From Loxodes magnus (taxonomy: Eukaryota > Ciliophora > Karyorelictea > Loxodida > Loxodidae): a stretch of DNA of 64,000 nucleotides. The notes under the pieces are model-generated. The model was given only the letters and a program-made list of their open reading frames with translations, ran no database searches and was not told the DNA's origin. A program made the position numbers and the translations under genes. The stretch covers positions 1 through 64,000 of the forward strand of contig CAMPDV010002092.1 in assembly GCA_946699065.1 (NCBI GenBank). Direction: 5' to 3'. Positions 918 through 62,264 of this stretch are shown piece after piece (within the stretch, counting starts at the first letter, position 1; every line of letters starts with the position of its first letter).

Positions 918-924
918 TTTGCAT

Positions 925-1450: not shown

Positions 1451-1659
1451 TTAGAGTTTTTAAATTATTTTTTATTACGCATAACTGTACTAAGATGATT
1501 CCTTTTTAGAAGAGATTTTTTACTAGTAATTTTCCATTTTTTTTATTATTAATAGGTCGTTTTTTCCACTTGGAAAAGCTGATGTGATTTACTGAATGAA
1601 TAGAATGAATAACATGAATAATGAGAACACTTTTATATTAATATTAATATTGAAAAAGT

Positions 1660-2039
1660 TGCATACCAACCTGGTTCTACGCACTCTATAATTAAAATTC
1701 TTTATTATATAAAAAAAATAGATAAATTAACCAAATTAAATGAGATAAACATAGATTATATAGGTTTATTTTATTGTATAAATGGCAACTTTTTTTCATA
1801 TTCATGTTTTTAAAGAAAGAATTTTTAAAAAAATAAATTAACTTTGTCGTTTAATTAATTTAATCTCAAATAAATTTTTTAAATTACTAAAAACTTTATT
1901 TTTACGTAAAGATATGTAGTCGATAGATGCAAAATTTTTTTAATTTAAGATTTAAACAAACTTTGGTAAATTAATTGAGAAAATTTAACTTATAGAAAAA
2001 TTAGTATGTTTTTTCTTTATTTATTTAAAAATTAAAAAT
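1660..2039. other. Gene-poor AT-rich stretch
   Basis: Low-complexity A/T sequence with no coding pattern I can support. It is mirrored in the right arm at about 55030-55440. Confidence 0.6.
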
Positions 2040-2640
2040 AGAATTTTCATATTTTTGTAAAAATTTAAATTTAAATACAGAATTGGATCAAAGGCATAAG
2101 AAAGAGACCTTAACGTATTTTGAAATATTTAGCAAGACTAGAACAGCTAAACTCAAAACTAGCAATAGAAGTTGAAAGAGTTGATTCACAAGTTAGAAAA
2201 ATATTAGAAAATCAGATAAAATTGCTCCGTTAAATGAAACTGAAAGAATAAGAAATAATCTAATAATAATTGAAGACAAAAATTACTCAAGATTTCAACT
2301 AAAAGACAAGTAAAAAGATGTTAATATTGTAATTCTCAAATATATCTGTGAAAAAGCTGCTAGAAGTTTCTCAATTTCAAGAAAGAATATTAAAACTAGT
2401 AGAAGTATTTGGAAAAATAAAAGAAGAGATAGTAACAACTAAAACTATAAAGAGAAAGACTATATAGTAACAAATATGTTAAACTTGCAAGAAAAAATGA
2501 TATCTAGTATCTAGGTGATTTAAGAATTCAAGGACAACAAGCATGGGCAAGGAGAAGAGTTTTAGAGATTTTCAAACTTTTATTTTATGCTTCTAGATCA
2601 ATCTAGAAGTTGGCGGGAAAAAGGTTGAAATATCTCCAAG
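2040..2640 (+). pseudogene. LINE ORF1-like protein, left-arm copy, frame-broken
   Basis: A coiled coil (RLEQLNSKLAIEVE) is followed after a frame change by ETERIRNNLIIIE, which resembles the start of the RRM in L1-type ORF1 proteins (the 'RRNNIII' motif). Further frame changes lead to a C-terminal stretch ending near YLGDLRIQGQQAWARRR. Comparison with the diverged M1 copy shows mostly synonymous changes in the coiled coil (CAG/TAG, CTA/TTA, GAA/GAG), so this frame was under selection. The frame jumps may be mini-introns or decay; I treat the copy as degenerate. ORF1 proteins bind LINE RNA. Confidence 0.55.
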
Positions 2641-2648
2641 ATCGCCAA
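2590..2648. repeat. Palindrome plus TTGGCG/CGCCAA hairpin
   Basis: A near-perfect palindrome (CTTCTAGATcaATCTAGAAG, 2590-2609) is followed directly by TTGGCG (2610-2615) pairing with CGCCAA (2643-2648). Both are kept in the right arm near 54440-54490. It lies at the 3' end of the ORF1-like region, so it may be an RNA structure or LINE 3' element. Confidence 0.4.
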
Positions 2649-2649
2649 A

Positions 2650-3450
2650 CATTTAATTTTGCATTTTTATTTTTATTTATTTTTGCAAAAAGTCTTATAT
2701 TATACCTTTAATTTTCTTTTCATTCATAGTTCCATTTTATATTGAAATAGAGAGTTATAATTACAGCTCTATAAGATAAAATTTGAATTATTTCAAAATT
2801 AAATACTAAAATTTGCTAGAAGTATTCTCAGATTTAAATTAAACAATATCTAAAGTTCAAAGATAAGAAGAAACTGGGTGATTTATGCTATAAAAATTTA
2901 GTGAATTAACAATCTACTAAAAAAGATATTCGAACATTTTTATTTTCGAAACAAATAGGAAATTTAGTAAATGAAAGAGATATTAAACTAAAAAGCTTTT
3001 CATATTCAGTCATAGTTAAAAAAATTTGCACTAACAAGAAATAGTAATGAGGAGTTTTTACTTAAAACGTTTATAATCATGCGAAAATCATAAAATAAAA
3101 TATCGATATTCAATAAGTAAGCTTACGTTGTTTGGTAATATAGAAAGCCAAGCAAAGCTAATTGATATAAAAATAGAAGTCAAAATAAAAATATTGTCTG
3201 AAGGAATCAATAATTTTTAGAATTAAATAATTTCAAAGGTCTCAAATCGTATACAGCTGTGAATCAAACTAAGGAAATATGAAAAAAATTATTAACAAAT
3301 TTTTATGTTGTTTTAAGGAATTAAGTAGTATCTTAATCAAAAAATAAATAAGCATTCTATTTTAAATAAGCTGAGATATGTAAGATCTATTTTATATAAA
3401 TTAAAAGTCAAGATATTCATAATTTAAAATCATAATTTCATATTAATTGC
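2650..3450 (+). CDS. Possible unknown ORF, low support
   Basis: From about 3110 the + strand reads as a Lys/Ile/Gln-rich protein (ISKLTLFGNIESQAKLIDIK...) for about 100 codons, using TAA/TAG as Gln. The sequence is mirrored in the right arm at 53700-54000. No domain is recognised and no start is clear. The first ~450 bases hold nothing I can support. Confidence 0.25.
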
Positions 3451-3453
3451 ATA

Positions 3454-3849
3454 TCACTAGCATTTTGTTCTATGTAATAATTAAATTTTAATATACTACA
3501 TCTAAACAAACGTAGATTTCAGTGCTTCAGTAGTAAAACGACTAATTATAATAATATTTAAAATCTGGTCCTACTATTTTCAATCAAATAAAGATAAAAG
3601 TATCCATTCTTTAAATGCAAATACTTGTGTTACCTCTTTGATATTTTTCATATCTATATCAACCTCAAGTTTTAAAATGTATTTTCTTAAACTCTTTTCC
3701 GTTTTTACCGAAATATAAATCCCAGCTGGTATTTCTACTTTCTTTCTCTATTTTTTAAAAGAGATGACGCCTCGCTACATATCTAAAATTTCAAAACGAT
3801 TCTCTTTATCTAGTTTCCCAGATGAAACAGGTTTACAGAAATTTCACAT
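3454..3849 (-). CDS. Unknown 131-residue protein
   Basis: A continuous frame starts at ATG 3849 (MWNFCKPVSSGKLDKENRFE..., second codon TGA read as Trp) and ends at TGA. It is mixed charged/hydrophobic with no signal peptide or familiar motif. The right-arm copy (52999-53393, + strand) keeps most residues but has a one-base deletion that breaks the frame after about 80 codons, so the left copy is the better one. Function unknown. Confidence 0.45.
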
Positions 3850-3935
3850 TTTAAGAGAAAAATAAAGTAAAATAAAAGTTAAAATAAAGGAAAACAAAAA
3901 GCGTTTATTTTTAAATAAGATTTTATAAAGAGTTA

Positions 3936-4750
3936 TCATTTGTCGTGCTCTTTTTTCTCTTGACTTTAATATGTTCCAAAAATTTTGTCGAAGATTGTTA
4001 TTATTGTTTCATAGTTAGCTATAATCTTATAATGATGATCGAGATGATATTTGTATGGGAACTTATCCCAATGTGACATTACAGCAACCATCATATAACT
4101 TAAAGATATAAATACTTTGGCCCAGTAGTTAATAGGAAATACTAGTATAGGGTAGAATAAAGTTGACATAGAAACATAAGTTTCTACTATGTGATCGAAT
4201 GCAAAATTAGTTATTCCAATCTTATCTTCAGGTTTTTACCATTAGGGATGAAATGAATGCCCATAACGATTTAAAAATTTGATATTATGTGATGCTCTAT
4301 GCTATGTATACCACCAAAGTTCAAAACCTAGCATCCATAACATAATATACGAATGACAGACTAAAAATATGTGCGACCCGTAGTGATTTTCGTTATGTCC
4401 TATAAGATAGTCCAATCGATGAACGTTTGCATCAAAGATAAAACCAACATATTGACTGAAATAGACTTTATCCACTTTTTGAAACTATCGTTAGACATAT
4501 CTTTATCTAAAACTTTAATAATAATATATAGGAAAGCAGTGATAGACGATATTGAAGCTAAGTCAACAATCCAATAAATGAGTCACATTGCCCAAGGTGA
4601 AGTTACTTTAAAAAAGTTGATATTCTGTGCTATCTACTTTATATCTTCTTAATTAGATATTTCTGGATTTTTATAAGTTCCAATAACATACAATGAGAGG
4701 AATACACTTGTGATCCACAGGTAATCAGTCTTCTTCTTCTGAATTTTCAT
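3936..4750 (-). CDS. Fatty-acid hydroxylase / sterol desaturase-family membrane enzyme
   Basis: Starts at ATG 4750 (MKIQKKKTDYLWITSVFLSL) and ends at TGA 3936. Removing a 20 nt GT..AG intron (4456-4475) joins two frames into one protein of about 264 residues. The C-terminal half has the superfamily's histidine clusters in order: HRASH, HSFHP and HLDHH, which bind a di-iron centre; the expected second-box HxxHH is altered to HSFHP. Several hydrophobic stretches, including one at the N-terminus, fit an ER membrane protein. One TGA falls inside (AMWLIYW) and reads as Trp. Family members hydroxylate or desaturate sterols, fatty acids or sphingolipids; the substrate cannot be told. Probably a captured host gene. 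Confidence 0.82.
4456..4475 (-). other. 20 nt spliceosomal intron in the hydroxylase gene
   Basis: Reverse strand reads GTGGATAAAGTCTATTTCAG. Removal restores a single frame across the gene (…FKN/QYVGFIF…). The size matches the 21-22 nt intron of the WD40 genes here. Confidence 0.6.
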
Positions 4751-4869
4751 ATTTAATTATAAATAGAGTTATATACCGATTTAGGTGGATCCACGCTAAT
4801 AAACTTTTTTATTTTATTTCCTCGAAGCTAAATGTAGGTGGATACTCGTTAGAGCTTTTCCTTTTTAAT

Positions 4870-5130
4870 GAAAATAGTTAAATTAATAGTATTTAGTATT
4901 TAAAAAGTCTTCAAAATAAAAATAACAAAATGACAATTAAAAAAATAAACGGCATCATATGCATTAAAGCTATTCAATGCATAAGCATAAAAACCCTTTT
5001 TCCCATCAAATACTATATCATAAACTTATTGATCATATTCAATCATCTTTGCTAGCCTTCTTACTGAAATTATTTTTGATAGCTTAGACCATATAGCATT
5101 CTTTATACCTTTTTAATAATCCAAGGGAAA
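4870..5130 (-). CDS. Short unknown ORF beside the hydroxylase gene
   Basis: The reverse strand reads as a plausible polypeptide (LAKMIEYDQQVYDIVFDGKK then GFYAYALNSFNAYDAVYFFN) of about 70-80 residues, with a hydrophobic end. It lies upstream of and in the same direction as the hydroxylase gene, inside the left-arm-only segment. No family recognised; it could be a gene fragment carried in with it. Confidence 0.3.
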
Positions 5131-5929
5131 ATTTAATTTAATTTGTTTCGTTTCATTTTAATTAAAGTATATATTTAAAGGATTAAAAGTAATAAAAAAC
5201 TGAAAGTAGCAAGTTCAAACGAACCAAAAAACAACTTCAAAGTACTAGCCTCAGAGTTAATAAATCCATTAAAGTATTTAATTGATTATTTATTGGAGCA
5301 TTACTAGTTAAATTAATATATTATTAAGATTACTAGACTCAGTATCTTTAATTAAAGATAGCCTAATTCTGTATAATACTTCTTATTTATGTATCTTAAT
5401 AAACTAACAAGATACATTAAACCTTTAAATATACTATATATTTCATTCTAAGCTTTTATTTACAAGATATTTGCTAATAAGTATATTAAACTAATTTAAA
5501 AATAAAATCTAGCTTTAATGCTTTTTTATGGTAGTTAGTATTTTAGATTTATTTTAGCTTAGAGATATAAGGAAAATCAAAATAGATTAGTATGATCTAA
5601 ATTAAGAAAAGGGAAGTTAAGCAGATAGAGTTTTAAAGGATTAGAATGATAATGTTTTCAAGAGACTAAAGTATGAATGCTTTTGTAGTTTTGGGGTTTA
5701 AATTTATGTTTATTGAATAGTGAAGTGAATGAAGCAGCAAATTCAATCTAAGATATTGCAAAGTTGGAAAAAAGACAGCAATTTTTTATATTCCTTAGAA
5801 AATATTAAATTAAATTAAATAATGTTTGCCTTTCAGCTTAATAAAATAATTTTTATGATATCACTCTCATTCTGAAGCACTTAGGTTCTTTAGAAAATAA
5901 AAAATAAACGCAACTGAAAATTTTTGATT

Positions 5930-6560
5930 TAAGATAATCAAGAAAATGAAAAACTTAAAGAGTGTGTACAATTATGCTACTTTGAGAATTTAAATCTCAA
6001 ACTATTGCATGAATATTTCAATCTAAATTTTATAAAAATCATTGAATATTTGTAGTTCTAGAAGGATTTACACTTTTTTGTTTTTTCAAAAGGACAATTC
6101 TTAGATTTATAAGTTCAAAATAGACATTTTGGCAACCCCTTCGGATATGTACATTTCTCATTTAATAGCAACTTTTTTATTTAAGACTTTGATTTATTAA
6201 ATTTTAGTGACTTCTTTTTTATTCATTTAGAAACACTGGAATTCTATAATTATTTAATTCTTCTGTAAAACTTTTGTTATTCTATTTTATCTATAGAAAA
6301 ACTTGTTAAACCATGCTCAATATCCAATTTGTAACTACTTGCAAACTTAAATATTTTTTAAATATCAAGCATGCATTTTTGTTGTAATTGATTATTTTAT
6401 TTTATTGAGAAAAATTGTAACTTAGCAGCTATTTCATTCTAGTTCGTAAATGATATTCTTGAATCTTTTAATTAATAATATTCAATTTAAGATTTAAAAC
6501 TCTTATCTTGTAGGTTTAATTTTTTTCTCACTTTCATTATGTTTATTTAAATCCTTTCTT
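5930..6560 (+). CDS. Leu/Phe-rich unknown ORF, left-arm copy
   Basis: One frame reads for about 200 codons as a Leu/Phe/Asn-rich protein (NLNLKLLHEYFNLNFIKIIE, then HFGNPFGYVHFSFNSNFFIQ). It is conserved in the right arm (− strand, about 51780-52400). Spacing of Leu/Phe is irregular, so I do not call leucine-rich repeats. Start and end are uncertain because no codon is a dedicated stop. Confidence 0.35.
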
Positions 6561-6599
6561 ATTACTACTAAAGACTGTATTCTTTTTAAATTTTATGAC

Positions 6600-7688
6600 T
6601 AAAACCAACTAGGATTTATTGTGACATTAATTTTAGTTTTAAATAACTTATATTAGCTAATCTAATACTTATATTATCTCATACTACAAAGAAACATATT
6701 ATGTTAAGTTTACTCTTTCTATTAATTCAGAAAATAATAATAGAAGATAGTAAAAATATGCTTTCTTAAAAAAACTTATAATTTTCTAAATATCAAACAA
6801 CTAATTTTAAGAAAGAGAGTATTAATAGTGTTAGCAATATAATATAGATTTGTATATAATAATAGAATTAAGTTTTTATCTTTAAATAATCTAGAATAAT
6901 TTAGGTATTATTAATTAGAAATGATAATTACAAAAATAACATAAATAATAAATATAATATTAGTTTGCTATAAAAGAGAAAGTTATCTAAATGTATTAAT
7001 TATAACTAATCTAATATCTAAATTAAAGAGAAATTAATTAATAACTAATAAAGCTAAAAGGATAAAATATTAAGTATTTAATAGACATAATTAAACATAT
7101 TAAAGCTTATTTTAATAATAAAATTAAATATTACTATTTAATAATTGTAAGATAAAATTAGTGATACACCATTTATAGTTAGATTAAATATTTACTTTCT
7201 ACTACTTATATTTATTAAACTTATATATTTTGCTTAGAATCAACATTATAATAAATTATATTAGTTTATTATTATAAGAGAGACCTTTATAAATAAAAAG
7301 TTTTAATGAAATAGTAGTAAGAAAGTGGGCAATTAAAAGATTTTATCCTATAAATACTAAAAATACTTTGCTTTAAATAATTTGATGTTTTTTAATATTT
7401 ATTCAAACTAATTAATAAGAAACTTGATTTATTTCATTTTTTTAATTAGTAAAAAGCTTAAATAAATAATTTTTTGATTAAATGTAAGTGAAAAATAATA
7501 ATTAATAGTAATAGCTTTTAAAAGAATTGTAATATTTTATTTATAATTTAAATTAATTTACAAAGAAATAAGGTTTTTTTATTAAGAGTCTTTGATTTAA
7601 AGCACAAATAAGTAGTAACTAATAAATGCATACTAAAGTTATTATAATAAGGATATAAATTCTTCGTTATAAGATTTTGATATAATAA
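6600..7688. other. AT-rich non-coding stretch shared by the arm copies
   Basis: Conserved in copy B (about 28800-29890) and the right arm (about 50530-51690), but no coding pattern, tRNA or motif is visible. Confidence 0.55.
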
Positions 7689-7720
7689 TATATCCTTTTA
7701 TTTAAAAATAAAAGGATATA
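7689..7720. repeat. 15 bp perfect hairpin upstream of the WD40 gene
   Basis: TATATCCTTTTATTT and its exact complement are separated by two bases, about 210 bases before the WD40 start. Copies B and C have the same site but with mismatched stems, so only the left copy is perfect. Confidence 0.5.
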
Positions 7721-7932
7721 AAATAATTAAAATTGTAAAAGTTTGTACACTATTAGTTTAATATCTTGTCTTGTTTTAAGACAAAAATAGAAAAATCAAT
7801 GTTTAAGAAATGAGATATTTATAAGTATGCTTAATAAATAATTTAATTGTTTAATTTTATTGAAATTAAGTAAGTAAAATTTATAGAGTTATTTTAATTA
7901 AATATTTATTGAATTAAGTTATAAAAATTAAA

Positions 7933-9015
7933 ATGGTGAAAAAATAAATGGAGAAAAAAGAAAAGCAATTTACTAAAAGTATTTTTTTAAGAAAACTCTT
8001 AAGAGCGAGAAGCCACATACTAGGGAAAATATCTTTACTTCATTTTAAGTATGAAATTCTGCCTAATTTATGTTACTAAAAGTTAATAAATAAGATCAGT
8101 TATGACCAAAGTAAAGGTATTTCTTTAATATTTTTTAACTAAGTCATTAATAGCACTTCAGATGTTTTATCGGTAGCCATATCAAGTGACCTGAATTGGA
8201 TTGTATCAGGTTCAGCATTTCCTGAAAATTCGATAAAGATCTGGAATTTCCAGATAGGTACTCTCCTAAGAACTATAACAGGACATACTTCTCCTATTAC
8301 TTCTGTATTCATCTCCTCAGACTCTAGCTATATAGTATCAGGATCTGATGATAAAACCATAAAGATTTGAAACTTGTAGACTGGTTCTCTCATAAGAACT
8401 ATAACGGATCATACTTCATGTGTTACATCGGTAGTAATTTCCCCAGACTCTAGCTATATAGTATCGGGATCTTATGATAACACTATAAAGATCTGAAATT
8501 TCCACAATGGTGATCTCCAAAGAACTTTGTCTGGACATACTGACTGAATTTGATCGGTAGTAATCTCCTATGACTCTAGATATATTATATCGGGATCTTG
8601 GGATAACACTATAAAGATTTGGAATTTCTAGACAGGTCAGCTTGTGCGAACTCTTACTGGGCATTCAGGTTCTGTTTTATCGGTGATAGTGTCTAAGGAT
8701 ATCAGGTATATAATATCAGGCTCGGATGACAGTACTATTAAGATATGGGAGTTCTCTTCTGGTTAGTGTATTCGTACTCTTTAAGGTCATACAGATGTTG
8801 TATGAAGTATTAAGTTAAGTGTTGATTCAAGTGTTATCTTTTCTGGTTCATGGGATAAAACAATCAAGATTTGGAACTTTGATAAGGGTGAGTGTATCTA
8901 GACTTTATAAGGACATACAAGTTCAATAAATTCTATAGCATTGAGTGTTGATAATAGATGGTTGGTATCGGGAGCGGGTGACAAGACGATAAGAAAGTGG
9001 AGGATTTCGAGTTGA
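7933..9015 (+). CDS. Seven-bladed WD40 repeat protein with variable face (left copy)
   Basis: Continuous 360-codon frame from ATG 7933 to TGA 9013-9015. A basic N-terminal ~70 residues precedes seven repeats of 42 residues (GHT...SVxIS...SGSxD.TIKIWN). Blades are near-identical to each other, typical of recently amplified WD40 arrays. In-frame TGA codons fall on Trp positions (two 'KIWN' motifs, DWIW, VVW); TAA/TAG encode Gln (WNLQTG, TLQGH). The first ATG is chosen because the right-arm copy has ACG at the second ATG. The 21 nt intron remnant has lost its 3' G and is read through in frame. Blade 1 lacks the GH pair. WD40 propellers bind proteins or peptides; the partner is unknown. Confidence 0.9.
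8117..8137 (+). other. Former mini-intron with lost 3' splice site
   Basis: Aligned with the right-arm copy, where the intron is 22 nt (GT...TTTT TTAG), this copy has lost the terminal G, leaving 21 nt ending TTTTTTA. It can no longer be spliced as GT..AG but stays in frame. Confidence 0.6.
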
Positions 9016-9019
9016 GTAA

Positions 9020-9700
9020 CTTGCTATTTGACTTAATTAAATTTTTCGATTAAAGATATAAGATATTGGTAATGTATTTAAATGAATGTTGAATGTTAAT
9101 AATGTTTTTAGTTATATGAAGTTTTTTAATTATTAAATAAAAATTTGTTATATTCTTAAATATTATTAGTTTAAAAAAAAGGTTGAGTGATAGGTTATAG
9201 AAATTAGTGAGGTATGTTGATTTAAAGTGGTAATGTTTAAAAATATTTAAAATATAATTTTGTTAAATGAAAGCATGAAATAAGTTTAAGTTTAAATTTA
9301 TGCTATAAAATTTTATGGATTTATTTTTAGATTTAGTAAAAATTTCAAGTTGAGTATAAATTTTCATTTTTTTTGTGAAGTGGTTAAAATATTATTTATA
9401 AGGTTAAAGTAAGTTTATAATTTTGATTATTAATTGAAAAAATTTAATTAAGTATTTATTTTAAATTAAATTAAATTTTGTTTTTTTATTATTTATTTTT
9501 TATTATTTATTTTTTATGATTGATTATTATTATTTATTAATTATTATTAATTATCATTATTATTAATTATTTATTGATATTATAAAATTTTAATATTTTT
9601 CGTTTCCGATTGGATTATAAAATTTTTTGATATTAAGTTTTTTATTTATCATTATTTTTCAATTTTAGAGTTTAAATTTCATGAAAATAAAAAATTTGTT
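9020..9700. other. WD40 3' flank, AT microsatellite-like
   Basis: No coding pattern. It contains imperfect TTATTATT/TTTATTATT tracts at about 9475-9560. The flank is conserved behind all four WD40 copies. Confidence 0.55.
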
Positions 9701-10265
9701 TTTTTACTCAGCGTTTTACACTACCATAGATATCTGGGACGGAATAAATTTAATTATTTCGGGATGAAAATTTTAAAATAGGAATAAAATTTCAAGAAAA
9801 AATTCCAAATATAAAAGATTTTTGAGAAAAAATAGGAATTAAAAAAATTTTATATTAAAATAGAATTTTGAATTTTTTTTTGTTGAAATGGTTTTTTGTA
9901 AAATTAAAAAAAATTTTTTGTTTTTAAGCAAATTTTTTGAAAAATTTTAAACAAAACTTTTTTTCTTTTTTATTTAAAAGTATATTTTTGATAAGGTTAA
10001 TTATGTTTGAAATTATAAAAAAAATTTATTGTTTATGCTTTGGAAAAAATACAATTTTTAATTTTGAACATCTTTTTGAGTAAATGAAAAAATTTGTTTT
10101 AAAATTTTTAATATTATAAGAATTTACTTAAATGAAAAGGATCTCAAGAAAAAAGGAGATATAATAAAATAACCATGAAATCGTGAAAAAATTATCCTTT
10201 TTTCGCTTCAAAAGATTTTCGGGATGGATAAATCCTTTTCTTAAAGGGATAGAATTTTAAAAGAT
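9700..10265. repeat. Recurring module with TTTCGGGATG motifs behind the WD40 gene
   Basis: Begins with an ACTCAGCGTTTTACACTACC motif followed by GGGACGGAATAAA and TTTCGGGATG, and ends near a second CGGGATGGATAAA. The same module follows every WD40 copy (about 26280-26830, 47510-48045, 61660-62225). The two ends read in the same direction, so it is not a simple inverted-repeat transposon. Confidence 0.6.
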
Positions 10266-11840
10266 TTGAAAAGTTTTTTAAATAACTTTTAAGAAGTAAA
10301 TATAAAAAAATAAATTACAATTTTAGGAAGAAATAAATTAGTTAAAAAATTTTTCTATAAGAGGGCTTAAAACTACCTTTTTAATAGATATTGCGAATTT
10401 TAAAAATAACTAATCTAAAAAGAGCTAAAAAATCTCTTTATAAAAATATGATCAATCAAGTAGAAAAAATGAGGTATAATGCATCTGTAATAATAAATTT
10501 TAGGCCAATTTACAAAGAATCTAAAAAAAGGAATTAAACAAGGATCTAAATAATGTATCTAACCTAACTATATAAAATATAGAAACAAAAATTTATTAAT
10601 CAAGTTTAAAAATATTCTGCTTTATTATAATAATTATAAAAATATTAAAAATTTAAGATTAGTAAAAGAGTTTTGAAAAGAGCTTACTACGACTAACTAT
10701 CTGTTTTTAGTTTGCGAAAAGATGTTAATTTAGAAGAGGAAAACAAGTTTTTAAGAAAAATTGCTATATTAAGTATTTTTTCTCTTTAAAATTTTTCTCA
10801 TTCTGTAATATTAAAAGAAAAGCTTTAAAGATAAACTTTCTGATTATAAGCAACTTGAATATATCTACTATGTATATAGAAAATCGATTTTATTTATTAA
10901 TCTTAAAATTTGAATTTCTAATGAAGCTATTTTATTAAAGTTGAAAGCTTTTTTAAAAAATTGATTGATTATTTATCATATAAAAACATTTGCTAGTAAA
11001 CTATATAAATAATTTGAATATATGGAAAATTATAAAAATCTTCACTTTCTTGTAAATTATCTTATATTTCCATCTAAAATAAGAATAAAATTATATTCTA
11101 ATATTAAATAATAAGAATTAGCAAAATGAAAGTGTAAATAATTAAGAAATCAATATAGTTTTGATTATATCAAAAAAGGTTAAAAGCTTTAATCTTTTGT
11201 ATAATTAAAATAATATACAAAGTGTAAGTTAATAACTATTATAATTATATCTATAAAAAATGGGAAATATTTCGTACAATATAAAAAGAAACATATATAG
11301 CATAATAAAAAGCAAAGTTTCTACTAAGCCGATAATGCTAATAGCCCACAATTTCATAAATAACCTTAATAATGAACTATTTTTGTTATATGCTAAATTA
11401 TTAGACAACTAAATTATAATTTATAATTTAAGCATTCCTTTAATAAATGCTTGCTTTAATATACAATATAGTAATTTTTAATTTAAGATACTAAATATTC
11501 ATAAACATAATAATATTTAAAGTGGTTTAATAAATATAATTTTTAAAAGATTAAACACTTATTTTAATTTAAAATATCTTATCAAGAAATTAAATTAAAA
11601 TGTTTTCATATTCATTTTCTAATTAAATAGTCATTATTTTTTCCTTATTGATCTATTTTATTAATATTTTAAAGATTGTAATTATATTTATTCATAAAGT
11701 ATGATATCAACTGAAAATTGCTAGATTATTTAAAGTTAAAAACTTAATTATTAAAACAATTCTTTTATAAGATAAACAGTGATAAGATGATATTATAGCT
11801 TAAAAAGATAATTTTTCCTGCAAATTGATTTATAAAACAA
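10266..11840. other. AT-rich arm sequence, no confirmed gene
   Basis: Conserved in copies B and C. At about 10440-10830 the + strand can be read as a Lys/Gln-rich polypeptide (FSLRKDVNLEEENKFLRKIA), but support is too weak to call a gene. Confidence 0.45.
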
Positions 11841-11964
11841 AACTTAATTTTATATGAGATTAATTGAAAATGTGCAAGAATTTGAGGAAATATAAAATAA
11901 ATAGGTTATAAGATGCAATAAATCGTCAAAAATATTTAGAATCTTTCCTGCAAACTTATCTCCA

Positions 11965-13085
11965 TCTATTCTAAATGAAGAATTTAGATTTTTGTAAAAC
12001 AACTCTAAGGTTTTTATTAGTCCAAGTGGTAGTTTAACTCTCTTAAATTGATCTAATAAAAGTCTTCTTTCTATTGAGTCAAACATTTTTTCAACATCTA
12101 TCAGTGTTGCTATCAGTTTAGTCTTACTTTTAGCACTTTTCTGATAGTTATCAATTATTTATTATATTATTCAAATTTATTAAGTTTTTTATCTGATTTT
12201 TATAAATCCTATTTATGAAAAACGAATCAAATTTCTCGCAAAATCAGATTGTATTTCTTTTTGTTAAAGCTTTATCATATAGTTTTATAATAATATTAAT
12301 AAGAGAAATAGGTAGTCAGTTTTTCCAGTCATCTTTATTTCCTTTTTTAATATTGGAATTTTTGCCAATGTATTTAATTCCTAAGGGATTCTTCCAAATC
12401 TTAACATATTATTCAGAAAAGAGTGAAGAATTATTAACAAATATTATCCACCATATTTCAGAAATTCACCTTTTATTCAAGCTGAAAAAGCTGCTTTTCC
12501 ATTCATAATTTATTTTATAATTTTTTGTATGGTAAAAAGATAAAATCCTAATAAATATGAGAGTTGATAATCTTTAATTTCCTATATACTATCTTATATT
12601 TTATCTATTTTTTAATTACTGAGAATTATATTATTTAGTTAGATTAAAATTTTTGTTAAAAATAAATTCTTCCATGACTCAATAGATTTATTTTTGATTT
12701 CTTAATTAAAGTTAATTTAATTATTTTTTTAGGGTTTTTAATTTTCTTAGTATTTGAAAATATTTCTTTTGCTTCTTCATTTAGAAGTAAAAGTTTCTTT
12801 TTTGCTTTATTTTCTCAAAATTTCACAAATTAGACTTGAAGTTTTTCCAAATTTGTTTCGCTGTTTCATGAAGATTAGTTACTTATTAGTTTATTCTTCC
12901 AGATATAATATATGCTATTTATATACTGAGTTAGCCCTTTTAGACCTACATAATTCTTAATAAAATCTCGAGGAAATTTTTTATAACTTGAGTCTGGAAT
13001 AAAGAATCCTAATGTTTAATCAGCATAGTATTAGATGTTATTTTTGATAAATTCATATTAAACTTCAAGAATCTTAATCTATCTA
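11965..13085 (-). pseudogene. LINE reverse transcriptase, N-terminal half (inverted piece, left arm)
   Basis: The reverse strand encodes the fingers/palm part of a non-LTR RT: a KAxxP-type region, 'KKGNKDDW' with NW.PIS, and DVEKMFDSIERRLLLDQ, the first catalytic Asp region. It is cut at 'FRIDGDKF', where it runs into unrelated arm sequence. The matching C-terminal half starts at 13090 but on the opposite strand, so this half has been flipped. Copy C (complement 42780-45770) keeps the two halves collinear. Confidence 0.8.
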
Positions 13086-13089
13086 AAAG

Positions 13090-13788
13090 AATTCTAAAGA
13101 ACGCCAGAACATTATAATACAACAATGGAGTTATGTAAGGAAATTTGCATGGACCGGCTTTAGCATTGTTGTATTATGATATAGTAATTAGATATTTGGA
13201 AAGTAAAAGTACCTAATTGAGATTCAAATGCCAGGGTTGGAGTATTAGCTTCGCATGTAGACGATGAGCAGATGATTTGATTCTTCTTTCTAGAACTTAA
13301 AAGTAAATGCAGGAGTTAATAAATGAAACAAGTAAGAATTTTTACATAAACTCACTTAAAGATAAATGTTATCAAATTTGAATGCATCTAAATTTTAAAG
13401 AAACATTAGAAATAATAAAATTAAATTTATGATTAGACAATTAACCAATTATTTAAAAGGAACTTTTAACATATTAAGATGTAATGCTACATTAGAAGAA
13501 GAATTTTAATTCTCATTGTAGAGAAGTCTCGTTCAAATATTTAGTTACAATGAAAAAAGCTGTTTTTTAACTTATAAGATATAAGAATGTGATTTCTTGA
13601 CATTTTAAAATTCTATGCAGGCTTTTTACACTACCTAAAACAGAATATGGAGGAGAGCTAGTACCATGGTGTATTCAGAAAGGAATAACTGGAGTTTTGA
13701 ATAGAATTGAATCAAGTATGAGAATGATTTCAAGAAAAGTATTTTAAGCAGCAACACTTTAAATGAAGCTATTTGATTTTATATTAAT
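13090..13788 (+). pseudogene. LINE reverse transcriptase, palm/thumb half (left arm)
   Basis: Encodes WADDLILLSRTQKQMQELIN, the ADD catalytic box, followed by a thumb/connection region (LPKTEYGGELVPW). Just before the box, an 11 bp near-duplication (13257-13267 versus 13268-13278) doubles the ADD codons and shifts the frame. The end joins module M1. The polymerase cannot be active as it stands. Confidence 0.75.
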
Positions 13789-13869
13789 TTTAGATAAAAC
13801 AGCAAATAATAATTGATTTATTTATAATTATATGAAATTGTTTCTCTGCTATTAAGAAATTTCAAGAAG

Positions 13870-14380
13870 TACAGTGTTTCTAGCTCCTCGCTGTTCGTTA
13901 AGATTTTTGGGGCAACTTTATGATTTCGCGTTCCCATTTGCGATTTTTTTAGATAGTTTTACCTTTCTACATTCCTGTCGGGCTTAGTTATAACTCCATA
14001 TTCTTCCTCTTATACATTCTTCCATTCTCGTGCAAAAAAATTTTGTTCAGCCCAATTGCTTCTGTTCGCTTTGCTTATCACAAATTCCTTTGTTTCTATT
14101 GAAACTTCTTACAGTTCTGATATAGCTTTTATTGGTTTTAGAAGCGAAAGCATCTTTTCTGAATCGGAATTAGTCTCATTTGAGGTTAAGCTTAGGGTTT
14201 GACGAATATTGAGATCGATCTAGTATTAGCTATTCCATTCTTGATTCTTTTAGGAGTTAAATTTCTTATTCTTATTTCACTACTTAATCCCTCAGCTAAG
14301 TTGTGTTTTTATCCTAATGGTTTGGATGCCGAAGAACGCATCCATTTGCGTTCATAGTCATCTATACGATCCCCGTCCAT
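13870..14380 (-). pseudogene. Unknown ORF beta, M1 copy (frameshifted)
   Basis: Begins at ATG 14380 with MDGDRIDDYERKWMRSSAS, as in the intact M2 copy, but small indels soon change the frame. Overlaps the 3' end of ORF alpha. See the M2 copy at 33653-34168. Confidence 0.45.
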
Positions 14381-14764
14381 TTAATTCTTTTCTTTGTGGC
14401 TTGAAAATTAGTTTTTTGTTCTAGTATTTCAACTTTTAAACTTCTTCATTAAAGTTCATCACCCTTAATGCAAACTACGCTACATCAAATTGCTCAGAGT
14501 TAAAGCCAAAGGATGTTCCTAGTCACGCAATACCATCTCCTACTGCCTTCGAGATCTCTCTTCCGTGTTCGGAGTTTACCAAGTTTTTTTCTGTCGTTTA
14601 CCCAGCTTTAAAAGTTGTTAGGTCTATTATTAGTTTTTTTTGCTGATAAAAGGCTGGCCTAATTAAAGAAAAAACGTGAGGTTAGAAGAAATGGCATCTC
14701 GCTTGCTCTCTTCCTTTTTGTCTTTGGAAGAGGTAGTAAAGAAGCCCTATTGGAAGTTTGGCAT
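14358..14764 (-). CDS. Unknown ORF alpha, M1 copy
   Basis: From ATG 14764 (MPNFQQGFFTTSSKDKKEES). One extra T near codon 26 breaks the N-terminal frame, while the C-terminal half is uninterrupted (GTSFGFNSEQFDVAQFALRV) to a TGA at SYR. The M2 copy has the complementary pattern: intact N-terminus, one-base insertion in the middle. Between the two copies a 3-base in-frame indel supports coding. The start (M-x-N-F-x-x-GFF) resembles that of the LINE ORF1-like gene at 19035, so it may be the ORF1 N-terminus of another LINE family; this is inference. Confidence 0.45.
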
Positions 14765-15047
14765 TTTTTAAATTTCATATAAATAGATGTATCTTATAAT
14801 TATCCAAGCTAGAAAAAACTTAAAATTTTATAAAGTTAATAATTTAAAATAATTTAATTATTAGATTTAACCTTTTTAAATAAAATTTAGTTTTCAAATA
14901 AGCTTACTAAATATTATTGCTTTTAAGAAAGCATCTTAAACATTTTTTATTTTAAGTTTTGAAAATTAAATTTTATTTTATTTTAAATTAAATTATTAAA
15001 TATGTTAATGTAAATAATCTTAAATAGGTTTAGCTTTTAATATTGCT

Positions 15048-17130
15048 TCAATAAGAGCTTGCAATATTATTAGAATATAAATATTTAAAAGATAGTTTAA
15101 TTAAAATTGTTTTTAAAGTTTCTATCTATACAGAGGACAAAAAACTCAAACTCTATAGATATATTACACATTTCAAATGACGTGGATCACCATGCAAAGC
15201 AGCCCCCTAAATTTATGAGAATGATGAAAAACATATAGGATATCCTGCCACGTCTTCTATTTGCTGCTATATTCTTTCTTTTTCTTGGTTGAAGATTCCT
15301 ACTACTTAAATAGATTTTTCTGAAGGAATATAGTCAGTTTCCTCTTATGTTTCCTCTTATATTTCTTCCTGCTTTTCTTCACTTTCTTCTACATATTTTT
15401 GTTATACATCCTGATTTGCTCTTATAGTTTATCCAAATTACATTGCTATAAGACTTGCTTATTCTTTACATGATTTTCTTTTTTTTCTCCAATTCATATC
15501 GTAATTGCTAAGCTTGGAAGTTTTTTCTTGAAAACCTCATATACTGCGCTATTTTAAAATACTGTTCTTGCAATTATAAATAAAATAAATTTGACTCCTA
15601 AAGGTGGCGTAGGTTTTTCTTCTTTATAACCATCTAATTTTCTCTTATATAACTCGAGCATTTTCTTCAGTTCAATCTTTTGCTAAACTGAAAATAATAA
15701 TTTTTCATTCTTTGCTATTTTAAGATGTATAAATTTGATTTGAAAAAGGATATCTTAAGATATGATAAATATTTAACATTTATTTAGTTTTATTTACTTT
15801 TTCTTATTCAGTTTATTAAGTACTAAGAACATTTTAAGTATTTTAGTCTATTTTTAGTGGTATGGGAGCATTTTATTATACTAATCTAAGCATTTCCTGT
15901 TCAAACAGCACATCTATTAAACTTACTAGCTCCTAGAATAAATTCAGCAACTCCTGCTTCACTTAAGGAGCTTTTCCCACTTGGACAGATTGCTAAACAT
16001 AGAATAGTAATTCCATTCAAATTTTTACAATTTTACCTTACTAAAAATTAATTCTTCTAAGTAGAATATAAGCTAGACATTCTTCATGGTCTCTAAAATA
16101 CTGTTCTGAAGCAATCTAATTCAAAATTTCAACTTATTGTCTTATTTTGCACTGAACTTCATACTTTTTTGTGTAAATATTCAATCAGTTAATCACTTTC
16201 AAATATGCTTTTCATTTAAAGACTTGGAATATTTCTAGCAAATCTTTCCCAAATCATTCTAAGGATTTAGTCAGATAATCCATCAGCTGTTATATTTTAT
16301 TGATGAGTAAAATATAAACCATAGAAAAAACACCATAAATCGGTTATTTAAGAATGCTTTGCTATTTCAAAATCTCTCATATTATAAAGTATGAAGTCAT
16401 AGTCACTAGGGTCAATAAAATTTTTATAATCTCTATATTTTAAAGCTGCTTCAAGAGAGCTATTTCTCTTCATCATCAATTCTTCCAATAGCTATATTCC
16501 TTACAATTTCTACTAAAAGCTTACCAAGTTAGGAACTTTCACGGATTATTCTCTTAGAATTATTTATACAGTGTTTATCATAGCCAATATATAGATTAAA
16601 AATTTGTCTTCTTCTGATCTATAATAAGCCATTAAAGTACCATAAATACATGCTAGGTAAGACTAAACCATTTCAAGAGCATATATTTTTTATTTCCCCT
16701 CTAATCTTAAAAACTTATTCTATGCATCAGACTCTAGATGTACAAAAGATGATATTAATCAGTTTTAGTTCTCAGGATGTTTCTTTCTCCAAAATGCATT
16801 ATTAATTATACTGCAAGGTAATAATCCTAAAACACCTCGCTAATTTACACGCTTCATTCAGACCCAATTATTAGTTCTAAAATACAAACAGGTACAGTTC
16901 CCGTTTGTAATGTTACATCTGTTTCTGGTAGTTAAAAAACTAGCACTAAATACGCATCAGCTTCAGTTTTTCCATCATGATTTTTAAAGGTATCATTAAG
17001 CATTTCAATTTCTACATTTTATCTCAATAAATTTTATCTCTCTGCAGCTCACTAAGTATGAGATGGTATTTAATAATTAATTATTGGAGTCAGGCAATCT
17101 TAATAAGATATAAAAAGTACAGGGACTGTA
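15048..17130 (-). CDS. Large unknown gene of module M1
   Basis: The reverse strand reads as a protein of roughly 650-690 residues: a hydrophobic N-terminal stretch (TLFIAIKFTVPVLFISYQD), a region with AYLVLVFQLPETDV, a long helical middle (AFWRKKHPENQNWLISSFVH; ITDLWCFFYGLYFTHQQNIT), CPSGKSSLSEAG, and an acidic tail of Glu/Gln repeats near 15310-15400. One frame change near 16860 and another near 15700 may be short introns or errors; exact splicing is not resolved. The M2 copy (34781-36865) is nearly identical with the same reading. CPSGKS is not a proper Walker A motif. No family recognised. Confidence 0.45.
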
Positions 17131-17159
17131 AATTTAATAGCAATAAAAAGTGTTAATTA

Positions 17160-18168: not shown

Positions 18169-18169
18169 A

Positions 18170-23640: not shown

Positions 23641-23689
23641 TGTCTCTTATATATTTAGTAAAAATTTTTTAATTGAAAGTTTAAAAAAT

Positions 23690-27510: not shown

Positions 27511-28593
27511 TCAACTCGAAACTCTCCACTTTCTTATTGTCCTGTCCCATCCTCCCGATACCAACCGTCTATTATCAACACTCAATGCTATAGAATATAT
27601 TGCATATTTATGCCCTTATAAAGTCTATATACACTCACCCTTATCAAAGTTCCAAATCTTGATTGTTTTATCATTTGAACCAGAAAAGATAACACTTGAA
27701 TCAACACTTAACTGAATACTTGATACACCCCTTGTATGACCTTGAAGAGTACGAATACACTAACCAGAAGAGAAGTCCCATATCTTAATAGTACTGTCAA
27801 CAGAACCCGATATTATATACCTATTATCCTTAGACACTTTTATCGATGAAACTTCGCTTGAATGCCCAGTAAGAGTTCGCACAAGCTGACCAGTCTAGAA
27901 ATTCCAAATCTTTATTGTTGTATCCCAAGATCCCGATATAATATATCTAGAGTCATAGGAGATTACTACCGATATAACTACATTAGTATGTCCAGACAAA
28001 GTTCTTTGGAGATCACCATTGAGGAAATTTCAGATCTTTATAGTGTTATCGTAAGATCCCGATACTATATAGCTAGAGTCTGGGGAAATTACTACCGAGT
28101 AAACTGAGGAAGTATGCCCCGTTAAAGTTCTTATGAGAGAACCAGTCTATGAATTTCAGATCTTGATCGTGTTATCAGCAGATCCCGATACGATATAGCT
28201 AGAGTCCTAGGAGATTACTACCGAGTTAACTGAGGAAGTATGTCCTGTTATAGTTCTTATGAGAGCACCTGTCTGGAAATTCCAGATCTTTATAGAATTT
28301 TCAGGAGTTCCTAAACCTGATACAATCCAATTCAGGTCACTTGATATGGCTGCCGATAAAACATCTGAAGTGCTATTAATGACTTAGTCTAAAAATATTA
28401 AAGAAATACCTTTACTTTGGTCATAACTGATCTTATTTATTAACTTTTAGTAGCATAAGTTAGGCAGAATTTCATACTTAAAATGAAGTAGAGATATTTT
28501 CCCTAGTATGTGGCTTCTCACTCTTAGGAGTTTTCTTAAAAAAATACTTTTAGTAAATTGCTTTTCTTTTTTCTCCATTTATTTTTTCTCCAT
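27511..28593 (-). CDS. Seven-bladed WD40 repeat protein (copy B)
   Basis: Uninterrupted frame from ATG 28593 to TGA 27511, same length as the left copy. It differs mainly at one face of the propeller: the tetrapeptides after each GHT read SSVN, SSVY, NVVI, (GHS)SEVS, RGVS and (GHK)YAIY in blades 2-7, versus SPIT, SCVT, DWIW, GSVL, DVVW and SSIN in the left copy. The residue before Asp in SGSxD also differs in most blades. A 21 nt intron (28389-28409, GT..AG) may or may not be spliced; both forms are in frame. Blade 1 lacks its GH pair, as in the left copy. Confidence 0.88.
28389..28409 (-). other. 21 nt intron in WD40 copy B
   Basis: Reverse strand runs GTATTTC...TTTTTAG. Its length is a multiple of three, so retention or removal both keep the frame. 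Confidence 0.5.
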
Positions 28594-49306: not shown

Positions 49307-50393
49307 TCAACTCGAAATCCTCCACTTTCTCACAGTATTGTCCCATCCTCCCGATACCAACCATCTATTATCAACACTCAATGCTATAGATTATATTAAA
49401 CTTGTATGTCCTTACAAAGTCTATATACACTCACCCTTATCAAAGTTCCAGATCTTGATTGTTCTGTCATCAGAACCAGAAAATATAACACTTGAATCAA
49501 CACTTAACTGAATACTTCATACAACATCTGTATGACCTTAAAGAGTACGAATACACTAACCAGAAGAGAACTCCCATATCTTAATAGTCCTGTCACCAGA
49601 ACCCGATATTATATACCTATTATCCTTAGACACTATCACCGAATAAACAGAACCTGAATGCCCAGTAAGAGTTCGCACAAGCTGACCAGTCTAGAAATCC
49701 CAAATCTTTATAGTTGTATCAGAAGATCCCGATATAATATATCTAGATTCATAGGAAATTACTACCGATATAACTGTATTAGTATGCTCAGACAAAGTTC
49801 TTTGGAGAGCACCATTGAGGAAATTTCAGATCTTTATGGTTGCATCGTAAGATCCTGATACTATATAGCTAGAGTCATAGGAGATTACTACCGATCTAAC
49901 GAAGGAAGTATGTCCCGTTATAGTTCTTTGAAGAGCACCAGTCTATGAATTTCAGATCTTGATCGTGTTATCAGCAGATCCTGATACGATATAGCTAGAG
50001 TCATAGGAGATTACTACCGAATTAACTTAATCAGTATGTCCCGTTAAAGTTCTTATGAGAGAACCTGTCTGGAAATTCCAGATCTTTATCAAATTTTCAG
50101 GATAGTCCGAACCTGATACAATTCAATTCATATCACTTGATATGGCTACCGATAACACAGCTGAAGAGTGACCAGTGAGGGCTTAGTCTAAAAAATATTA
50201 AAGAAATACCTTTACTTTGGTCATAACTGATCTTGTTTATTAACTTTTAGTAGCATAAGTTAGGCAGAATTTCATACTTAAAATGAAGTAGAGATATTTT
50301 CCCTAGGATGTGGCTTCTCGCTCTTAGGAGTTTTCTTAAAAAAATACTTTTAGTAAATTGCTTTTCTTTTTTCTCCGTTTCTTTTTTCTCCAT
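49307..50393 (-). CDS. Seven-bladed WD40 repeat protein with 22 nt intron (right-arm copy)
   Basis: ATG 50393 to TGA 49307. Splicing the 22 nt intron (50188-50209) gives 354 codons in one frame and a complete blade 1 (LTGHSSAVLSVAIS), which the other copies have lost. Variable tetrapeptides in blades 2-7 are DQVN, SFVR, NTVI, (GHS)GSVY, DVVW and SLIQ, and the x of SGSxD is A, Y, S, G, D, with GGWD in blade 7. Blade 4 starts EHT. This copy best shows the ancestral gene structure. TGA encodes Trp in several KIWN motifs. Confidence 0.9.
50188..50209 (-). other. 22 nt intron in WD40 right-arm copy
   Basis: Reverse strand GTATTTCTTTAATATTTTTTAG (22 nt; GT..AG). Needed to keep blade 1 in frame. 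Confidence 0.75.
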
Positions 50394-59610: not shown

Positions 59611-59944
59611 TTCATCTCTTCTTTATTTTCTAAATATTTGTTAGTTTTTTATTTTTAATATAGATAAGTGTTTTTTAGTTGTGGCTGAATATTTTCCATT
59701 TTGTTTGGCTTTAAAATTTTAAGATTAACTAAAAATTAAAAAAATTATTAAGCTAGATTACATCTAAAGCATTTAAAGAGTTAAAGTTAAAGTTAAAAGA
59801 TAATTAAAGTGCTTTAGTTAAGCTACTACATATAAGTATGCTTAATAAATTATTTATTAGTTTAATTGTATTTAAATTAAGTAAGTAAAATTTTATTGAC
59901 TTATTTTAATTAAATATTTATTAAAGTAAGTTATAAAAATTAAA

Positions 59945-61017
59945 ATGGAGAAAAAAGAAAAGCAATTTACTAAAATTATTTTTTAAAGAAAACTCTTAAG
60001 AGCGAGAAGCCACATTCTAGGGAAAGTATCTCTACTTCATTTTAAGTATGAAATTCTGCCTAACTTATGCTACTAAAAGTTAATAAATAAGATCAGTTAT
60101 GACCAAAGTAAAGGTATTTCTTTACTATTTTTTAGACTAAGTCATTAATAGCACTTCAGATGTTTTATCGGCAGCCATATCAAGTGACCTGAATTGAATT
60201 GTATCAGGTTCAGGATATCATGAATTTCCAATAAAAATCTGGAATTTTCCAGACTGGTTCTCTCATAAGAACTATAACAGGACATACTGATTATGTTAAT
60301 TCGGTAGTAATCTCCTATGACTCTAGATATATTATATCGGGATATGCTGATAACACGGTCAAGATCTGAAATTCATAGACTGGTTCTCTCATAAGAACTT
60401 TAACGGGGCATACTTCCTCAGTTAGATCAGTAGTAATCTCCTATGACTCGAGCTATATTATATCAGGATCTTACGATAACACCATAAAGATCTGAAATTT
60501 CCACAATGGTGCTCTCCAAAGAACTTTAACGGGATATACTTCTGATGTTATATCGGTAGTACTCTCCTATGACGCTAGATATATTATATCGGGATCTTCT
60601 GATAAAAACTATAAAGATTTGGGATTTCTAGATTGGTCAGCCTGTGCGAACTCTTACTGGGCATTCAGGTTCTGTTTATTCGGTGATAGTGTCTAAAGAT
60701 AATAGGTATATAATATCAGGTTTCGGATGACAATACTATTAAGATATGGGATTTCTCTTCTGGTTAGTGTATTCGTACTCTTTAAGGTCATACAGATGTT
60801 GTATGAAGTATTAAGTTAAGTGTTGATTCAAGTGTTATCTTTTCTGGTTCAAGGGATAAAACAATCAAGATATGGAACTTTGATAAGGGTGAGTGTATAT
60901 AGACCTTTATAAGGGCATACAGGATGAATATGGTATATAGCATTGAGTGTTGATAATAGATGGTTGATATCGGGAGGACTTGACAAGATGATAAGAAAGT
61001 GGAGAGTTTCGAGTTGA
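59945..61017 (+). pseudogene. WD40 repeat gene, copy D, frameshifted
   Basis: Starts ATG 59945 with the usual N-terminus and ends with KWRVSS-TGA. The 22 nt intron (60114-60135) is intact. Several one-base insertions, mostly in short runs (AATTTTCC near 60245, GATAAAAAC near 60600, GGTTTCGG near 60720, ACCTTTAT near 60902), break the frame. Variable tetrapeptides are DYVN, SSVR, SDVI (GYT), GSVY (GHS), DVVW, GWIW. No other copy has exactly this set. Confidence 0.8.
60114..60135 (+). other. 22 nt intron in WD40 copy D
   Basis: GTATTTCTTTACTATTTTTTAG (22 nt), same position as in the other copies. Confidence 0.65.
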
Positions 61018-62264
61018 GTAACTTGCTATTTGACTTAATTTAATTTTACGATTAAAGATATAAGATATTGGTAATGCATTTAAATGAATGTTTAATGTTA
61101 ATAATGTTTTTAGTTATATGAAGTTTTTTTAATTATTAATTAAAAATTTGTTATATTGTTAAATATTATTAGTTTAAAAAAAAGGTTGAGTGATAGGTTA
61201 TAGAAATTAGTGAGGTATGTTGATTTAAAGTGGTAATGTTTAAAAATATTTAAAATATAATTTTATTAAAAGAAGACGTATAATAAATTTAAGTTTTATT
61301 TTATTCGATAAAATTTTATAGATTTATTTTTAGATTTTGTAAAAATTTCAAGTTAAGTATAAATTTTAATTTTTTTGTGGAGTAGTTAAAATATTATTTA
61401 TAAGGTTAAAGTTGGTTTATAATCTTGATTATTAATTAAAAAATTTAATTATTTCGGGATAAAAATTCTGAATAGGAATAAAAAATACCTAAATAGGAAT
61501 AAAAAATTTCAAAAATATTTTTATAAAATATTTTTGAAAGCGATTTTTGAAAATATTTGTTGGAAAATTTTAAAAAAATTTGTTTTTTTTTAGGAAAATG
61601 AATTTTTATAGCTTCCTTTGATTAAAAATTTTTTCGAAAAATTACAAATTTGTTATTTGCTCAGTGATTTATACTACCATAGATTTCTGGGACGGAATAA
61701 ATTTAATTATTTCGGGATGAAAAAAGTTAAAAGGGAATAAAATTTCAAATATAACAGATTTTTGAAAAAAATAGGAATTAAAAAATTTTTTTAGTATAAT
61801 TAGAATTTGTAAATCTTCTTTTTAAAATGGTATTTTGTAAAAATGAAAACACTTATTTTTGTTTTAAGGAAAAATATTTGATTTTTTTTAATTTTAGCAA
61901 ATTTTTTGTTGCTTTTTTATTTCAAGAAAAAAAATTTGATAAGTTTAATTTTTTTGAAATTGAAAAAAAAGCTATTGTTTATGTTTTTGATAAAAATGAA
62001 TTTTTTTTGACTTGAACTAAAATTTAAAAAATTTAATTTCTTTTCAAGTAAATGAAAAACTAGTGATAAAATTTTTTAATTTTATAAGAATTTACTTAAT
62101 TGAGAAGGATCTCAATTAAAAAGAGAGAAAAGAAAGTAAAGAATGAAATTGGGAAAAATTATTTTTTATTTTTTAGCTCTGAGTCTTACACTTAAAAAGA
62201 TTTTCGGGATGGATAAATTAAAAAAAAAGGGTTAAATTTTTGATAGATATAAAAATTGTTAACA

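Follow-up and report, generated by a model that had tools for sequence, protein, structure and literature searches.

Does a ciliate carry a repeat-borne recognition family, in which near-identical WD40 blades are diversified at one face of the propeller in the manner of the fungal HET-E/HNWD proteins? The question is raised by a sequence-only reading of the window studied here, the initial 64,000 nucleotides of contig C2092 of Loxodes magnus, which described four WD40 gene copies (A to D) and a fungus-like pattern of differences between them. The four copies are present where that reading had placed them, with B and C on the minus strand (Table 1), and both its blade-4 motifs (DWIW, NVVI, NTVI and SDVI in the four copies) and its residues at the x of SGSxD in blade 6 (W, N, D and R) were recovered. 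The accessible text of the genome report gives the macronuclear assembly of this species as 706 Mbp, with code table 27 (PMC11441545); the assembly searched here comprises 705.7 Mb in 7,843 contigs. Frames were read with TAA/TAG as glutamine and in-frame TGA as tryptophan, and over blades 2–6 of 32 representatives tryptophan is encoded by 85 TGA and 123 TGG codons and glutamine by 189 TAA/TAG and 112 CAA/CAG codons.

Table 1. Features of the four WD40 gene copies and of the homologous stretches around them (window coordinates)
Feature	Positions	Strand	Remarks
Copy A, exon 1	7948..8116	+	N-terminal region of 56 constant residues, MEKKEKQFTK...ISYDQSK, and the base that opens the next codon; spliced reading
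Copy A, intron	8117..8143	+	27 nt, GT...AG; predicted from sequence
Copy A, exon 2	8144..9015	+	Seven WD40 blades; stop is the TGA at 9013-9015
Copy B, exon 1	28410..28578	-	
Copy B, intron	28389..28409	-	21 nt (27 nt, to 28383, with downstream AG)
Copy B, exon 2	27511..28388	-	Seven WD40 blades, open; copy B is locus L012
Copy C, exon 1	50210..50378	-	Upstream in-frame ATG at 50393
Copy C, intron	50188..50209	-	22 nt (28 nt with downstream AG)
Copy C, exon 2	49307..50187	-	Seven WD40 blades, open after intron removal; blade 1 is LTGHSSAVLSVAISSD
Copy D	59945..61017	+	Exon 1 at 59945-60113; intron starting at 60114; exon 2 disrupted by several insertions of one base each
Duplicated blocks around copy A	5396..12825		Self-BLAST
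Stretch that copy D has in common with other copies	59831..61745	+	Self-BLAST

The genes follow one plan, comprising a 56-residue first exon, a putative intron of 21–28 nt (depending on the choice of AG) and seven 42-residue WD40 blades closed by a TGA stop; an in-frame ATG at 7933 may add five residues to copy A. Splicing is predicted from the genomic letters and is supported by segments whose length is not a multiple of three and which still leave exon 2 open. In six of eight further members that have the longer segment, exon 2 is cleanly open (in L065 just a short patch departs from an otherwise open frame, L060 is frame-shifted), and removal of a 22-nt intron leaves all of 14 additional loci open. 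A frameshift after KGISL in copy C, and at the first break in copy D, was considered and rejected, since both reflect the difference in intron length. Copies A, B and C are open, whereas copy D switches frame three times across its blades and may be either a pseudogene or an assembly error. Spliced copy A matches Pfam WD40 at 1.2e-77 in seven stretches, and the best 25 of 54 families are all WD40 or propeller models. Exon 1 is nearly constant, with 98% mean column identity in an alignment of 19 members. Submitted alone to Pfam, it returned just a sub-threshold zinc knuckle and, at E up to 10, no SOCS box; a loose LxxxCxxxL motif, which we take to be the consensus of SOCS/BC-box adaptors, is visible by eye. 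A PDB sequence search with exon 1 gave a best E of only 0.026, and AlphaFold2 returned one long helix at a pTM (0.53) too low for trust.

Copies A, B and C lie inside large inverted duplications of 90–94% identity, 5396–9823 matching 48528–52926 (inverted, 92.2%) and 6633–12825 matching 23674–29892 (inverted, 93.8%), and the homology of copy D extends over 1.6–1.9 kb only (about 1.6 kb with A at 89.5% and with B at 89.7%, about 1.9 kb with C at 83.9%). By self-BLAST the window is a mosaic of duplications at 90–99%. Homology beyond the gene is also seen between members elsewhere: with loci cut at a flank of 1.5 kb, it runs upstream for about 450 nt or more in 191 of 231 pairs, and in at least 209 of 231 it continues downstream to 1450 nt or further, the stop lying near 1070.

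First-exon matches were found at no fewer than 189 places in the genome. The protein search scored 150 of 3602 first-look candidates, and the DNA search gave 40 places at 99–100% identity out of 1571 first-look candidates, 39 of them new and one (C1643:49200) common to both lists. This figure, a lower bound, counts some haplotypes and identical copies as separate places, and we infer a family of about a thousand members. The starting set held 52 loci (L009–L058 with copies C and D; L011 is copy A), of which 13 were dropped for want of the end motif and six more failed an anchor or framework filter, leaving 33 loci in 22 clusters at 96%. Five of L059–L066 were added for a set of 27 representatives (L060 had no usable frame, L065 was filtered out and L062 was redundant) and five of L073–L086 for a set of 32. 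Nine of the 13 dropped loci (L031, L034, L043–L047, L051 and L053) were later found unbroken, so that the filter was stricter than needed. Of 60 loci (L009–L066 with copies C and D) 52 read through the blades without a break and eight, copy D included, have frame switches, a share of open genes that is biased upwards because loci from the protein search were picked by their match to an in-frame first exon. Seven blades are present in 46 of the 52 unbroken loci and 5, 6, 8 or at least 11 in the others, and the spacing after the first blade is 126 nt in nearly all of the 60.

We then asked where the blades differ, numbering each from GHT (positions 1–3). Variation is far from evenly spread: over 22 representatives entropy peaks at positions 23 (2.78 bits), 5 (2.62), 7 (2.43), 25 (1.78) and 4 (1.72), all others staying at or below 1.03. 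The sequence-only reading had named the residues after GHT, the residue two later and the x of SGSxD; the concentration it described is real, and its list of positions is slightly off. In the pairs A/B, A/C and B/C, 17–18 of 25 face residues differ against 12–16 of 185 others (Fisher p 1.3e-12 to 1.3e-11). The A/B pair differs at 37 of 75 nucleotides of the face against 34 of 555 (6.1%) in the remainder of blades 2–6, and this non-face divergence is about that of the 6.2-kb duplicated block as a whole (93.8% identity with the gene counted in). The 135 blades of 27 representatives hold 125 distinct four-residue combinations, and all 27 of the 25-residue faces differ, partly by construction, as representatives were picked to be less than 96% identical. 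In the fungal HNWD repeats codons 7, 9, 25 and 27 are hypervariable and flank the conserved codons 8 and 26, according to the accessible text of that study (PMC1805685). Aligned by us on the conserved V and D, positions 5, 7, 23 and 25 of the Loxodes blade fall on these four codons with an offset of two, which bears out the correspondence that the reading had drawn.

Substitution rates over blades 2–6 (blades 1 and 7 were left out) were obtained from NG86 counts under this genetic code. With the caution that NG86 is rough for recombining, saturated codons, dN at the four HNWD-equivalent codons is 3.69 times the framework dS (bootstrap 3.03–4.47) and 1.85 times their own dS (1.53–2.28) in 22 representatives, where dN/dS is 0.32 in the framework and 0.09 in exon 1; with 27 representatives the first ratio is 3.80. 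Codon by codon, the ratio in the larger set is 4.99 at position 5, 4.75 at 23, 4.52 at 7, 2.94 at 4 and 2.09 at 25, and at most 1.28 elsewhere. The a-b and c-d loops, which by the usual propeller convention we take to be the bottom face, stand at 0.53 and 0.51 times the framework dS (27 representatives). Second positions of the four codons, compared with framework fourfold sites in 32 representatives, give 4.16 (3.68–4.68), and bottom-loop second positions give 1.36 (1.16–1.61) times the fourfold rate, so that the bottom face is not inert. The p-distances of flanks and intron are 0.10, 0.06 and 0.10 in 22 representatives, against a pN of 0.53 at the four codons. The sequence-only reading had named two outcomes that would count against it, an even spread of variation along the blade and no rise of dN/dS at the face, and neither was obtained.

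AlphaFold2, run on copy A (8146–9012) with 21 aligned members, returned a propeller at pLDDT 97.1 and pTM 0.92, with seven four-stranded blades and the WD40 signature. Assigned by secondary structure rather than by mapped coordinates, the variable residues fall in the d-a loop and start of strand a and in the b-c turn, sites that the fungal paper, in its accessible part, places on top of the propeller (PMC1805685). The top solved structure in Foldseek is 5yzv, the WD40 domain of PkwA (rmsd 1.1, 34% identity).

Differences between closely related members are confined to tracts. L080 and L082 differ within the gene at 20 sites, all inside 124 nt of blade 6; within the gene L082 and L083 differ at nt 343, 344 and 347 only, in codons 4 and 5 of blade 2; L081 and L085 are identical up to nt 443 and differ at 71 sites thereafter. 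In 14 loci that agree over 166 nt of the first exon, exon 2 is open in every case and has seven blades, and nine distinct proteins are encoded. For 123 of 135 blades, the closest blade of another gene is the one at the same index, and framework distances between different blades correlate at −0.19 to 0.32, those within one blade at 0.29–0.38 for interleaved halves and 0.04–0.32 for first against second halves. Same-index neighbours and blade correlations thus point to exchange mostly between blades at matching positions, perhaps in units smaller than a blade, by a reassortment test of limited power, given that even interleaved halves correlate at just 0.29–0.38.

Blades of this kind also occur in tandem arrays. 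Six WD40 stretches on six contigs (7–15 units) each have four of their six top-entropy positions among 4, 5, 7, 23 and 25; in some stretches positions 41, 42, 36, 30 and 2, outside the face, vary as well, and in five of the six the units match the majority unit at 0.96–0.97 of nucleotides. That these arrays are plain satellites was rejected, the same codons being variable. Long arrays of WD40-coding 126-nt units, read in part, were seen on C119 (704200 to the contig end at 737544) and C1503 (matches from about 12600 to 104600); they have about 45% GC where read, against about 22% in the window, reach the contig ends, may be coding satellites and may not be genes. Stretches of the C1503 array yielded 103 near-identical 126-nt units (103 of 106 passed the filter, each place counted once), with frequent amino-acid differences at codons 5, 7, 23, 25 and 41–42, in array copies that are not mutually independent. 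At codons 41–42, just before GH and outside the face, these units show a linked FT/WI alternation (TTT ACG versus TGA ATT), in which TGA stands at the tryptophan position.

The reading had noted that no effector domain is attached, which holds for the window genes, with Pfam run on spliced copy A and six-frame scans on the DNA beside it, but fails for a homologous relative. At C512:155600–160100 (L092/L093) a protein kinase domain (PK_Tyr_Ser-Thr, 4e-56), with HRD, DFG and APE motifs, is joined to seven WD40 blades by a linker ending LQYDKSQ and a 20-nt putative intron, a junction that resembles the one ahead of the propeller in the window genes, and this propeller is 50% identical to that of copy A, last blade included. 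When its kinase tail and linker served as the query, 61 matches were obtained, several of them on array-bearing contigs. Four such loci were fetched, of which L094, L096 and L097 run openly into seven blades and L095 is frame-shifted; they show the kinase tail, the kinase domain itself being seen only in L093. Neither NACHT nor HET was found in spliced copy A or in six-frame scans of 5400–7940 and 9015–13700, and membership of the HNWD/NWD (STAND NLR) group was rejected on the grounds that neither domain was found in or beside the gene. Genome-wide there are 31 weak NACHT matches, and no WD40 blade was found in the 4–5 kb around the three inspected. The match at L070 also fits nephrocystin NPHP3_N, L072 looks alike by eye, and L071 (C256, five matches) is a different NACHT protein.

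The systems closest to this family each share a part of its design. A likeness of the 42-residue, high-identity blades to HNWD had been proposed and is borne out by the 126-nt spacing and by an internal identity of 0.55–0.66 (mean 0.58; a simple count rather than the program of Hu et al., blades 2–6 of 32 representatives), which is lower than in fungal HNWD repeats. In Podospora anserina the HNWD/NWD genes (het-d, het-e and relatives) exchange WD40 repeats and show diversifying selection on the modelled top face, as far as the accessible texts describe (PMC1805685, PMC2873952). The Loxodes family resembles them in repeat exchange (tract-limited differences) and variable repeat number (5, 6, 7, 8 or at least 11 blades), in two hypervariable codon pairs around conserved residues on the top face, with selection at the equivalent codons 5, 7, 23 and 25, and in its many face combinations (125 in 135 blades, against 55 in 69 repeats in the accessible fungal data). 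It differs in what precedes the propeller (a short constant exon, or a kinase in the case of one relative), in its size (at least 189 matching places against a family of 10), in its mostly single seven-bladed propellers, and in its host, a ciliate rather than a fungus. Hu et al. (2017) describe, in the accessible text, highly repetitive WD40 proteins from bacteria, fungi and protists that share with this family recent repeat duplication, a conserved framework and diversity at predicted interaction hotspots; on their scale it lies above the line for "moderately repetitive" (0.4) and below that for "highly repetitive" (0.7), to which the array stretches come closer, and the part of the survey that we could consult describes no single family with position-matched exchange (PMC5587647). 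The kinase-bearing L092/L093 gene resembles bacterial PkwA (5yzv), which likewise joins a kinase to a WD40 propeller, and in this the window genes, having no kinase, differ. We know of no report of PkwA as a hypervariable family. With no SOCS match in exon 1, the window genes do not group with the SOCS/BC-box ubiquitin adaptors. No report of such a ciliate WD40 family was found in the literature, searches for Loxodes with WD40 included, subscription papers being mostly outside the search.

The face excess might in principle arise without any selection for binding. WD40 blades generally conserve their strands better than their loops, and eight of 60 loci are broken, as would suit a face made of free loop positions that drift neutrally around a conserved core; yet neutral drift caps dN near dS, whereas face dN is 3.7–3.8 times the framework dS and roughly double the dS of the face codons themselves, pN of 0.53 is some five times the flank divergence, and the bottom loops stay near 0.5. 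Neutral loop drift is largely refuted by this excess, and we consider relaxed constraint extremely improbable. Programmed or local hypermutation of the face codons would help to explain why synonymous change is raised at the four codons (pS 0.34 in 27 representatives against a framework value of 0.21 in 22) and third-position change at the face codons too (0.456, 32 representatives), from which it follows that whole-codon copying or local mutation contributes; in the L082/L083 pair, the three changes span five bases, and the sampled loci, a small part of the family, yielded no donor for the L083 form. A mutator would, however, need to skip codons 6 and 24, which lie between the variable pairs, keep their amino acid and have a near-ordinary pS of 0.257. 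Moreover, seven very close pairs have only four of 23 differences in the five face codons, which indicates that the excess accrues over longer times or via tract copying, and a blade-sized replaced tract is observed. Hypermutation with no selection for binding we regard as very unlikely. Collapsed haplotypes or chimeras could also yield false blade combinations, and L073/L074 and L081/L084, on separate contigs, are identical over the compared length; against this, a gene of about 1.1 kb is short relative to PacBio consensus reads, all 14 loci with the same exon 1 keep exon 2 open in nine forms, and assembly errors would not pick face codons. We judge such an artefact highly improbable, even for a highly repetitive genome treated with a diploid-aware assembler at a 96% setting, as the accessible report has it (PMC11441545).

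Two further readings accept that the face diversifies and assign it another cause. The extended homology of the flanks and the 90–99% mosaic of the window would suit a multicopy gene that is a passenger or selfish, has spread through segmental duplication or as an unclassified interspersed repeat, and is diversified by conflict with its host, and the assembly is described in its accessible text as rich in unclassified interspersed repeats (PMC11441545). Pfam found no transposon domain in the parts of the window that were scanned (13700–18400, 5400–13700 minus the gene, 57700–63990 on the plus strand, 61000–63990 on the minus strand, and 1–6000 in five of six frames), the intron argues against retrocopies, and exon 1 is under strong purifying selection; this explanation we regard as decidedly unlikely. 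WD40 proteins are commonly scaffolds, and a kinase fusion is compatible with ordinary signalling, so that an adaptor family with many intracellular partners (trafficking, axonemal or ubiquitin-type), rather than non-self recognition, deserves some weight. For ordinary scaffolds, however, dN above dS at the face, many distinct faces and blade exchange over many copies are unexpected, and we think this rather unlikely.

What we prefer, and believe to be probably correct, is that these genes form a large germline WD40 family acting as a putative recognition repertoire, its face diversified by positive selection with an HNWD-like logic on another chassis; the proposed HET-E/HNWD-like character of one diversified face is supported. 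In such a repertoire the constant N-terminal exon would couple each protein identically to the cell, and purifying selection would hold the propeller framework. Positive selection would diversify the d-a loop and b-c turn residues of the top binding face, and new faces would come mainly from the copying of blades or short tracts between members, which makes the genes different combinations. The homologous kinase-WD40 gene suggests that binding may be turned into phosphorylation, the kinase-less window genes serving perhaps as sensors, decoys or donors for the same repertoire. The face would then bind varied ligands, these would be non-self, and the kinase would signal; a role in allorecognition is conceivable on this basis. 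More speculatively, and as a possibility towards which we do not lean, the family could be an anticipatory, germline-encoded repertoire of around a thousand propellers with combinatorial, position-matched blade exchange and a branch that bears a kinase. It would then be a receptor system of immune or allorecognition type in an organism that is neither animal, plant nor fungus, and might be reshuffled further on the way from the germline to the somatic nucleus. The ascomycete and ciliate proteins, which differ in architecture, are diversified at the same four codons of the blade, and this points to convergent use of the repetitive WD40 top face as an evolvable binding surface. Germline and somatic genomes of Loxodes magnus are both reported in the accessible text (PMC11441545), so that it can be tested directly whether the repertoire is purely inherited or is rebuilt in the somatic nucleus as well.

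Around the WD40 genes, Rfam and tRNA scans gave no matches, and a periodicity scan for other genes was unproductive. The sole Pfam match in the neighbouring DNA scanned is a fatty acid hydroxylase domain at about 3972–4343 on the minus strand (E 2.6e-8). A duplicated stretch with the common reading frame EEIQEETQEETDYIPSEKSIQVVGIFNQEKERIQQQIEDVAGYPICFSSFSQ, whose region (13700–18400) gave no Pfam match, occurs on the minus strand at 14951–15550 and again at 34901–35350.
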